Shown here in pieces: positions 2,445 through 7,104 of a DNA stretch of 7,104 nt. The stretch's first letter is position 1; every line of letters begins with the position of its first letter. The stretch is from NCBI GenBank assembly GCA_016193065.1, contig JACPSX010000004.1:1-7104 (forward strand), in the 5' to 3' direction. The stretch is from Candidatus Tectimicrobiota bacterium. Lineage in GTDB: Bacteria > JACPSX01. A model generated the notes under the pieces. It was not told the DNA's origin and ran no database searches. It was given only the letters and a program-made list of their open reading frames with translations. The position numbers and the translations under genes are program-made.

Positions 2445-3204
2445 AGCCCAGGAAGAAGCCACCCCCATTTATGTGGATCGTCTGGCCGGTGACATATCGG
2501 CTCATTTCTCCCAGCAGAAACAGGCAGGGACCCACCAGATCCTCGGGAACCCCGATCCGCCCCATGGGGATCGTCTTCTCGCGGTTTCGCACCTCGGCGG
2601 CGAATTCCTCCTCCGTGGCATCTCTGCGCAGGAGGGCGGTGTCGATGGGCCCCGGAGCCACAGCATTGACCCGGATCCCGTCGGCAGCCACCTCCATGGC
2701 CAGTGACTTCGTGAAACCCACAATGCCCGCTTTGGCAGCCGCATAATGGGCGGCATTTTTCGCCCCTTTCGCTCCAAGCCCGGAGGAGAAATTCACGATG
2801 CTCCCCGCCTTCTGGGACTTCATGGGCCTCAGAGCTTCTCGGCAGCACAGGAAAGTCCCCATCAGATGGACCTCGATCATGCGCTTCCAGTCCGCCATGC
2901 TGAGTTCAGCCACAGGCGTATAGCGTAAAAAGCCGGCGGCGTTGACGAGCATGTCCAGGCGGCCGCAACGGGAGACGATGTCGGCAATTGCCGCGGCTAC
3001 TCCAGACTCCTGCGAGACATCGACCCGATAGGCCATGCAGCGCCCCCCTTGGGCTTGAATCTCTGCTGCGACTCGCTCAGTCCCGACCTGATCCAGGTCC
3101 GCCAGGGCCACGGCCGCACCCTGCCGGGCCAGCTCCAAGACCACGGCGCGCCCGATTCCCGCGGCGCTTCCTGTCACCAAAGCCACTTTGCCCGCAAATT
3201 CCAC
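2443..3204 (-). CDS. SDR family NAD(P)-dependent oxidoreductase (FabG-like)
   Basis: A classical short-chain dehydrogenase/reductase of 253 residues. It has the Rossmann glycine motif TGSAAGIG (11-18), an Asp ending beta-2 in ALADLD (36), which usually indicates NAD(H) rather than NADP(H), VDV (61-63), NAAG (88-91), catalytic Ser 141 in NFSSG, the YAAAK motif with Tyr 154 and Lys 158, and PGPIDT (184-189). The usual Asn of the catalytic tetrad (NLxG) is His 113 in VHLMG, a variation seen in part of the family. The substrate cannot be read from sequence; it could be a 3-oxoacyl, hydroxy acid or sugar alcohol reductase. The start is GTG at 3204. An upstream in-frame GTG at 3222 would translate through the AAGGAGG ribosome-binding site, so I prefer 3204. 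It is divergent from the DHS-like/thrC operon with a shared promoter region, and its stop abuts the palindromic element. Confidence 0.93.
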
Positions 3205-3400: not shown

Positions 3401-4525
3401 ATGTCAGCAAAGAGCCCTTTCCTGAAAGGAAAACCGATCCGGCCGGAGCCCGTGGCGGCCGGGATCTCCGCCGCCGATCTAGTGGACGGAACCTTCCTCG
3501 CCTACAACGCGGCCAGGCTGCGGGAAGGGTGCCGTCTCTTCGTGGAGAAAATGCTGGAGGACGGTGTCACCGTCGGGATGAGCCTCACCGGCGCCCTGAC
3601 TCCGGCGGGTCTGGGGCGTTCCTGCCTGCTGCCCTTCATGAAAATGGGGTTCGTGGACTGGATCGTGAGCACGGGAGCCAACCTTTACCACGACACCCAC
3701 TTCAGCCTCGGATTGAATCTTCACCAGGGGACTCCGTTTCTGGACGACCGCCAGCTCCGCAAGGAACAGGTGATCCGCATTTATGACATCCTTTTTGAAT
3801 ATGACGTTTTGCTATCCACGGACGTCTTCTACCGGCAGGTCGCTTCTCTGCCTGAATTCCAGAAGGCCATGGGGACGGCGGAGTTCCACTACCGGGTGGG
3901 AAAATACGTGGGCGAGAGGGAGCAGGCTCTGGGGTACGAGGGGGGCAGCATCCTGTCCGTGGCTCATGAGTATGAGATCCCCATCTTTACTTCCTCTCCG
4001 GGGGACAGCTCGATCGGCATGAACATCGCAGCCTTGGCCCTGGAAGGGAATCGCCTCCAAATCGATCCGAACGTGGATGTAAACCAGACCGCGGCCATCG
4101 TTTGGAAGGCCAGGAGCAACGGCAAGGGCAGCGGCCTATTCATCCTGGGAGGGGGGTCCCCGAAAAACTTCGTTCTGCAAACGGAACCCCACATTCAGGA
4201 AATCCTCGGAATCGCTGACTCGGGGCACGACTACTTCCTGCAAATTACCGATGCCCGCCCCGACACGGGGGGACTTTCCGGAGCCACCCCAAGCGAAGCA
4301 GTCAGTTGGGGGAAAGTAGACCCGGACAAGCTGCCCGACGCCGTGGTCACTTACGTGGACTCCACCATTGCTCTCCCCCTGATTACGGCCTACGCTGTTT
4401 CCCGGCGCCGGCCCCGTGAGCCGAAGAGACTTTACCGTCATTTGGAGCAGTGGACCGCGGACCTGCGCCAGAGCTATCTGGCTTCCAAAAATTCCGGCGG
4501 CAAGGGAGTTTCAACCAAATCTTGA
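3401..4525 (+). CDS. Deoxyhypusine synthase family protein (bacterial; substrate uncertain)
   Basis: A 374-residue member of the NAD-dependent deoxyhypusine synthase family, which transfers the aminobutyl group of spermidine through an enzyme-lysine imine. Visible: [13 protein letters not shown] (59-71), [10 protein letters not shown] (89-98), [14 protein letters not shown] (103-116), [17 protein letters not shown] (125-141), a glycine-rich LGGGSPKNF (249-257) and the catalytic motif EAVSWGK (299-305) with Lys 305. Eukaryotes and archaea modify (a)IF5A with this enzyme. Bacteria have EF-P instead, so the acceptor here is probably a small amine (homospermidine-like chemistry) or something unknown. 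By eye against the human enzyme, Trp 303, Glu 299 and Lys 305 are kept while several polyamine-binding acidic and His positions differ. ATG 3401 is chosen because the promoter ends at 3325 and homology begins after it; only a weak GAGAAAG lies upstream. Its TGA is 10 bases from the thrC start. Confidence 0.9.
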
Positions 4526-4535: not shown

Positions 4536-5918
4536 ATGAGTCAGGAAGCGCTCGCTCGACAACCCAACCGCTCCTCCGGAGACGCCCCGACTTACAGGGC
4601 CTGGTTTCAATGCATCGCAGGCTGCCCGGGCACCTACGAACTCAATGAGATTATCTACCAGTGCCCCAAGTGCGGCAATCTCCTGGAAGTCGCCCATGAC
4701 TTGGATCTTCTGCGCCAGAACTCCCCCGGCCAGTGGATGGCCCTCTTTGACATGCGCTACCGGGGGACCGAGTGGCCTTATGGCAGTTCCGTTTGGGGCA
4801 AAAAAGAAATGGTCTGCCCCAACGTGGACAACCGCAACATTGTTTCCACCTACGAGGGCGGCAGCAATCTTTTCTGGGCCGAGCGTCTGGGGCGCGAGAT
4901 CGGCCTGGAAGATCTCTGGATGAAGCTTTGCGGAAACAGTCACACCGGCTCATTCAAAGACCTGGGAATGACGGTCCTGGTCTCCATGGTGAAGCAGATG
5001 ATCTCGGAAGGCGTGCCCATCCAGGCCGTGGCTTGTGCGTCAACGGGGGATACCTCGGCTTCCCTGGCGGCTTATTGCGCCGCGGCGGGAATTCAGGCCA
5101 TTGTTTTTCTCCCCCGCCACAAGGTCTCCGTCCCGCAATTGATCCAGCCGCTGGCCCACGGCGCCCTAACGTTATCCCTGGACACGGATTTCGATGGCTG
5201 CATGAAGCTTGTGCAGGAGATCTGCGCCAAGAACAACATATACCTGGCCAATTCCATGAACTCCCTGCGCCTGGAAGGGCAAAAGACCATCAGCATTGAA
5301 TTGGTCCAACAATTCGACTGGGACATTCCCGACGTCGTCATTGTTCCCGGAGGAAACCTGGGAAATATCAGTGCCATCGGGCGAGGTTTCCTCCTGTTGC
5401 GGAATCTGGGGATTATCTCCCGGCTCCCCCGCCTGGTATGTGCTCAGGCCGAACGGGCCAACCCGCTCTACCGCAGCTACCTCACGGGATTTCGGAAATA
5501 CAAACCCATTAAAGCGAAAAAGACCCTGGCCAGCGCCATTCAGATCGGCAATCCGGTGAGCGTCCAGAAGGCCATTAAAGTTCTGAAAGAATTTGACGGG
5601 ATTGTCGAGCAGGCAACCGAGGAGGAGTTGGCCAACAGTGCAGCCCACGCGGACCGCACTGGACTCTACAATTGTCCACACACCGGAGTGGCCCTGGCTG
5701 TCCTTTCCAAGCTGGTGAAAAGAGGGGTGATTGGTCCCCGGGATCGCGTGGTGGTCATTTCAACGGCGCACGGTCTCAAATTCGCCGACTTCCAGCTGCG
5801 CTACCATTCTCGCCGCCTGCGGGGGATCGAGTCCCGCCACTCCAATCTGCCCGTTGAACTACCTGCCCGGGCCGACCGGATCATGGAAACTATCGTGCGC
5901 CGTCTGGAAAAACCTTAG
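4536..5918 (+). CDS. thrC: Threonine synthase (PLP-dependent, with N-terminal zinc ribbon)
   Basis: Converts O-phosphohomoserine to threonine and phosphate, the last step of threonine biosynthesis. The 460-residue protein begins with a four-cysteine ribbon (Cys 26, 30, 43, 46) typical of one branch of threonine synthases. The fold-type II PLP core follows: [16 protein letters not shown] (104-119), [12 protein letters not shown] with the PLP Lys at 141, [14 protein letters not shown] (167-180), the phosphate-binding GGNLGN (272-277), and AIQIGNPVS (334-342). Near the C-terminus, CPHTGVALA (380-388) and STAHGLKF (409-416) fit the family. All key residues are present. The start is ATG 4536, preceded by GAGGAAG. 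It is the second gene of an operon with the DHS-like gene. The TAG stop at 5916-5918 overlaps the TAA stop of the convergent ribonuclease gene. Homologues such as cysteate synthase are close, so the reaction is likely rather than proven. Confidence 0.93.
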
Positions 5919-7104
5919 GGGATCCTGTCTTTCTTCCCGGCAGAGGAATCCTTCGTTTCCCCTTCCGGATCTTCGTGGCTTATGGGCTCCAGTTCCGACT
6001 GGACCGGATAACCTCCTGCCAGATATTGGGGACCGGGTGACTCTTGGGGGGGAGGCTCATCTTCATAGGTGATTTCCACCTTTTCTTCCCCACTCTGGGC
6101 CACTCTTCGCCTGCCCATCCAGAACAACAACCCATGCTTGCGCCTTTGTGGAAACGTGTAGGCTTCGGCCTCATCATCGGAAAACGGTCCGGCACTCTCG
6201 GCCTGGTCCACCGGAACGGACTCTTTCGAAACCTCTATCACCTCCGTTGCCTGGGGCTTCGGAGAGTCGGGCAGCGCCAAAGGTGGAGTCTCTGAAAGGG
6301 GGGGAAAAAGAGGCTCTTGGCCCGCAGGGGGCTCAAGGAGCGAGATTTTCGGTTCCTCTCGGGCCTGCAAGGGTGCAAATAGCGGGGCCTCCTGTATCTC
6401 CTGGGACCCCGGGTACCCCGGGTGCCCTGTGGGCGTAGCTTGTTCTCGCCGGCGCCGGCGCCCGCGACGGCTTCGCCTCCTCTGGCCGGGCTCCCGGGGC
6501 TCTGCAGGTTCCAGATAGCCTCTAGGCGCGGGCTGCGGGGCGCTCTCCGGGGTCTGCACCTGCGCGGGAACCCCCTCACGAGCCGGGCTTTCCTCCTGAG
6601 AAATTTCCCTGCGCACGAATTCCATTTCGACTTGGTGGGGCATGAGCCCCTCTTTGCCGAGCACATGAATTTCCAAGCGGGAGTCCTTCTCCAGGCTATG
6701 AAGATCCTCCCGCTTCTGGTTCAGAAGATAGGTAGCCACGTCTTGGGGGAGAGCAACCCGCACCTCCTCCAGCGCGCCGTCCTGGGCGCCCGCCTGGATG
6801 CGCCGCAAAACCGATAGGGCTTGGGACTCGATTGTCTTTACCAAACCGTTTCCCGTGCAGAAGGGGCATACTCTGTAGCTCCCTTCCTGCAGAGCAGGCT
6901 TAATGCGCTGGCGCGACAACTCCAGCATGCCGAACCGCGAGATCCGCCCGACCTGTACCCGGGCCTTGTCCTTGCGCAGGGCATTGCGCAGGGTTCGTTC
7001 GACCTCTTGCTGGTGCTTGCGGTCCTTCATGTCGATAAAATCGATGACGATGAGCCCTCCCAGGTCTCGCAGGCGAAGCTGGCGGGAAATCTCATTAGCC
7101 GCCT
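5915..7104 (-). CDS. rne: RNase E/G family endoribonuclease, C-terminal part (5' end outside window)
   Basis: A single-strand endoribonuclease for mRNA decay and rRNA/tRNA processing. The frame is open to the window edge, so 396 residues are visible without the N-terminal S1 domain. The visible part starts in the DNase I-like catalytic domain: [19 protein letters not shown] (residues 4-22) includes the Asp matching E. coli RNase E Asp 346 (a metal ligand) at residue 21. The zinc-link CPFC follows at 79-82 in VCPFCTGNG, then the small domain to about residue 165. After that comes a tail of about 230 residues rich in Pro and Glu, probably disordered, with an Arg-rich patch (208-220, [13 protein letters not shown]) and an isolated hydrophobic segment [11 protein letters not shown] (323-333). 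Tails of this kind in RNase E bind RNA, membrane or degradosome partners. Whether it is RNase E or RNase G by function cannot be told from this part. The TAA stop overlaps the thrC stop. Confidence 0.92.

Follow-up and report, generated by a model that had tools for sequence, protein, structure and literature searches.

A deoxyhypusine synthase homologue of a Candidatus Tectimicrobiota bacterium is very likely a SpeY-type homospermidine synthase

In bacteria, the deoxyhypusine synthase (DHS) homologue SpeY makes homospermidine from putrescine, according to passages in PMC9992855 and PMC10407285, both of which cite Burnat et al. 2018 for the SpeY of Anabaena. A further DHS homologue, the caldomycin synthase CdmS (NF002699; Thermus TTHA1570), couples one agmatine to another (PMC10981699). 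The bacterial HSS of the Blastochloris viridis type is non-homologous to SpeY (PMC9992855) and shares with the enzyme described here only the presumed product, homospermidine. In DHS itself, His288 of the human enzyme is an invariant proton acceptor/donor (PMC7226451), and the Sulfolobus enzyme, which uses spermidine and modifies aIF5A, carries Thr200 and Leu272 at the positions of human Asp243 and Asp316 (PMC7773846).

The window analyzed here, 7,104 nucleotides of a Candidatus Tectimicrobiota bacterium, is an entire contig (C231) of a 2.9-Mb host genome that is 86% complete. Two of its genes are:

3401-4525, + strand: speY, putative DHS-like homospermidine synthase of 374 amino acids, assigned from NF001980, Pfam DS, the tree and the predicted fold
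4536-5918, + strand: thrC, threonine synthase (TIGR00260, 210.9 bits against a cut-off of 167.1; start codon inferred)

Translation of the speY frame from 3401 to 4525 gives 374 amino acids with no internal stop. The frame stays open further 5', as far as a TTG at 3188; because homologues match from residue 1-4 of the protein that begins with the ATG at 3401, we favor this ATG as the likelier start codon. By its inferred start codon, thrC begins 10 bases 3' of speY, and the two genes are probably co-transcribed; thrC lies outside polyamine synthesis. We noted a Cys-rich stretch (YQCPKCG) in the N-terminal region of the thrC product. Elsewhere in the window, a partial ORF on the + strand (10-486; 158 amino acids from its first ATG, with the frame open at the contig start) had no match in Pfam or NCBIfam, and the C-terminal part of an RNase E/G family protein on the - strand (5915-7102), interrupted by the contig end, bears a long low-complexity tail rich in Pro, Glu and Arg.

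The speY product matches the NCBIfam equivalog model NF001980, 'homospermidine biosynthesis protein', over positions 1-349 of its 350 at 557.9 bits (cut-off 450). Pfam DS (deoxyhypusine synthase) matches residues 34-331 with 226.6 bits (cut-off 27). The other DHS-family models in NCBIfam reach at most 214 bits, each under its own cut-off; these include the DHS equivalogs NF002006 (213.6 vs 434) and TIGR00321 (177.9 vs 304), and the CdmS equivalog NF002699 (153.9 vs 500). Homologues with 61-68% identity occur in Kryptonia, Acidobacteriota, Gemmatimonadota, Verrucomicrobiota, Planctomycetota, Ignavibacteriota and Cyanobacteriota, and our connection to the Anabaena enzyme runs indirectly, through NF001980 and the cyanobacterial homologues.

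A phylogeny and a structural superposition, both proposed as checks by the initial annotation, agree with this assignment. In a tree of 49 proteins that included SpeY homologues, CdmS-family proteins and archaeal DHS, the speY product and 39 SpeY homologues (40 rows) form one branch with support of 100/97, set apart from the CdmS family and DHS; the tree places the protein to the level of this branch and no finer. The AlphaFold2 monomer model (mean pLDDT 88, pTM 0.88) superimposes on human DHS with a Z of 30.9 and an rmsd of 2.2 Å over 296 residues, and it has the archaeal DHS fold as well, with Z about 30 to the human and archaeal enzymes. On these sequence-based lines of evidence, the protein is very likely SpeY, a homospermidine synthase that depends on NAD and belongs to the deoxyhypusine-synthase superfamily.

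The active-site residues were read directly from the ORF (Asp202, Met207, Asn256, Gln260, Leu292, Glu299, Trp303 and Lys305) and fall in three segments:

4001-4024, + strand: residues 201-208, GDSSIGMN, with Asp202 at human Asp238 and Met207 at human Asp243 by the alignments
4157-4183, + strand: residues 253-261, SPKNFVLQT, with Asn256 at the catalytic human His288 and Gln260 at human Asn292
4262-4315, + strand: residues 288-305, with Leu292 at human Asp316, and Glu299, Trp303 and the catalytic Lys305

Human Asp238, with which Asp202 aligns, is an NAD-site residue. The initial annotation had matched human Asp243, His288 and Asp316 to Met207, Asn256 and Leu292 by eye. Profile alignment to PDB chains gives the same pairs, the columns coincide in a multi-family alignment that includes archaeal DHS, and these alignments thus place Met207, Asn256 and Leu292, rather than acidic or His residues, at the three positions. 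Each position falls within a motif that aligns without gaps (D-x-S-I-G-M; G-G-G-x-x-K-N-F; G-G-L-S-G-A..E-A-V-S-W-G-K). Inside the monomer model, confidence is low in one segment only, residues 288-294, so Leu292 was assigned from the gap-free, SWGK-anchored sequence alignment and not from the model. Human Glu323, Trp327 and Lys329 are retained as Glu299, Trp303 and Lys305, and the catalytic block is intact, as had been stated.

The initial annotation had also read the three replacements as a rewired polyamine site, implying a new amine specificity, and this reading we rejected. Met207, Asn256 and Leu292 are invariant in 83 of 83 aligned SpeY sequences from many phyla, as is Lys305 of the superfamily SWGK block; the three replacements are therefore features of the family. 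Two of them also have counterparts in archaeal DHS: among the Pyrococcus, Sulfolobus and haloarchaeal enzymes, the Asp316 column holds Leu, as here, and the Asp243 column holds Asp, Thr or Asn. Since spermidine-using archaeal DHS can also be without both residues, the Asp243 and Asp316 swaps are not diagnostic, and the earlier reasoning from residue loss fails for these two. It stands for the third. The His288 column is His in every aligned DHS and Asn in SpeY and CdmS-family proteins, making His288 to Asn the informative change and the only one of the three that tracks function in the sequences aligned here.

The speY product is thus a typical member of an already described family, in which its residues are standard. 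It agrees with SpeY in whole length, equivalog score, fold and the Lys305 block, and in the Met207, Asn256 and Leu292 of all relatives examined. Nothing significant sets it apart; here speY precedes thrC, and the contig as assembled does not link it to speD-speB.

The host gene set fits homospermidine synthesis, in that it provides for putrescine and, as far as detected, not for spermidine; with a genome 86% complete, the absences that follow carry little weight. On a contig other than that of speY (C129:2858-4359; L095, genome G000), a speD homologue is followed 176 bases on by an agmatinase gene. The SpeD homologue has 141 amino acids and scores 75.6 bits on TIGR03330, 0.05 bits short of the 75.65 cut-off. 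An arginase is also encoded. In this 86% complete genome we detected no spermidine synthase SpeE, no agmatine deiminase AguA, no archaeal-type pyruvoyl arginine decarboxylase PvlArgDC and no PLP arginine or ornithine decarboxylase. LysA, encoded in an argH-lysA-dapA run, is the one decarboxylase with the alanine-racemase fold; as it is the sole PF02784 match, no carboxyspermidine decarboxylase was found. The sole aspartate-aminotransferase-fold decarboxylase match (PF01276, weak) and a PF03435 match both fell under their cut-offs, and we took them as unrelated superfamily members.

One genome therefore carries a SpeD homologue without SpeE, an agmatinase and SpeY. This SpeDA-SpeB-SpeY set has been published for other bacteria, and SpeD-derived arginine decarboxylases have been shown for SpeD homologues found without SpeE and with agmatinase and SpeY (PMC10407285). 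By this context the host SpeD homologue is a candidate SpeDA-type pyruvoyl arginine decarboxylase; no diagnostic residue, the published proline marker included, is placed in it with certainty. Putrescine would then probably arise from arginine by this decarboxylase and the adjacent agmatinase, giving a likely route from arginine through agmatine and putrescine to homospermidine.

The speY product would most likely make homospermidine from two putrescines, and for its reaction we infer the following course. NAD+ bound to SpeY would oxidize putrescine, and Lys305 would take over the aminobutyl imine so formed as ammonia is released. This lysine would be displaced by a second putrescine, and the NADH formed earlier would reduce the new imine to homospermidine. 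In DHS, His288 serves as proton acceptor/donor on the secondary amine of spermidine; its replacement by Asn plausibly reflects a donor that is a primary diamine. The initial annotation had suggested that the protein still forms an enzyme imine but acts on a different amine donor or acceptor. Its guess of homospermidine-type synthesis was very probably right, fitting NF001980 and the host genes, and its alternative of an uncharacterized product is unneeded given that SpeY is described.

One competing reading is a CdmS-like enzyme that couples agmatine, from whose product agmatinase would later strip the guanidine groups to leave homospermidine. CdmS shares the superfamily and the catalytic Lys, aligned members of its family likewise have Asn for His288, a hydrophobic residue in the Asp243 column and mostly Leu in the Asp316 column, and the host has an agmatinase. 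Yet the speY product is at most 33% identical to CdmS-family proteins, falls far below the NF002699 cut-off and separates from them in the tree, and CdmS Glu136, the proposed binder of the guanidyl group of the second agmatine (PMC10981699), is apparently Tyr134 in SpeY; we consider this reading very improbable. The same low odds apply to a coupling, in this lineage, whose two substrates are not both putrescine (putrescine and agmatine, for instance) and whose product has so far been attributed to no SpeY.

Homospermidine could instead be built with an aminobutyl group taken from spermidine, in the manner of the plant enzyme. The superfamily offers a precedent (Fig. 1 of PMC10981699), the host might take up spermidine from outside, and its SpeD homologue, so close to the TIGR03330 cut-off, may yet prove a genuine AdoMet decarboxylase. 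However, neither SpeE nor carboxyspermidine decarboxylase was found in the host, putrescine is the substrate reported for bacterial SpeY in a passage of PMC9992855, and the His for secondary-amine chemistry is lost, leaving this donor very unlikely. A true DHS acting on an eIF5A-like protein would account for the fold, Lys305 and the NAD-site residues, since archaeal and eukaryotic DHS (7cmc, 8put, 1rlz) share Asp202, Glu299, Trp303 and Lys305, and archaeal DHS also the Leu in the Asp316 column. Such an enzyme is nevertheless exceedingly unlikely here: identity is only about 20-24%, all DHS equivalog models score far under their cut-offs, and the His288 that is invariant in DHS is Asn256. The initial annotation had expected no eIF5A target, and indeed TIGR00037 had no match in the 86% complete host genome at E up to 0.01.

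In the flanks examined in relatives, speY was found linked neither to speD-speB nor to its neighbors in the window (tblastn with host protein queries, which could miss distant SpeD/SpeB homologues). ORFs that looked like SpeY fusions in L004 (629 amino acids) and L017 (619 amino acids) lie in a frame other than that of speY and showed no DHS domain by profile scan, and they were set aside. No SpeY was found in phages, and plasmids carried only CdmS-like and haloarchaeal DHS genes. The plasmid-borne CdmS-family (NF002699) genes of Nostocaceae and Sphingomonas (L087, L088, L094) are annotated as deoxyhypusine synthase. The records of four SpeY contigs (L052, L054, L060, L062) bear the name Klebsiella pneumoniae or Akkermansia muciniphila. 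In the tree, L052 clusters with a row from Verrucomicrobia, so at least that record looks like a mislabeled MAG.

Among the aligned sequences, it is His288 to Asn, and not the loss of Asp243 or Asp316, that splits the bacterial polyamine couplers (SpeY and the CdmS family) from the protein-modifying DHS, and this change may serve as a simple annotation marker. An annotation of 'deoxyhypusine synthase' in this bacterium would very likely denote a route to homospermidine, not to hypusine.
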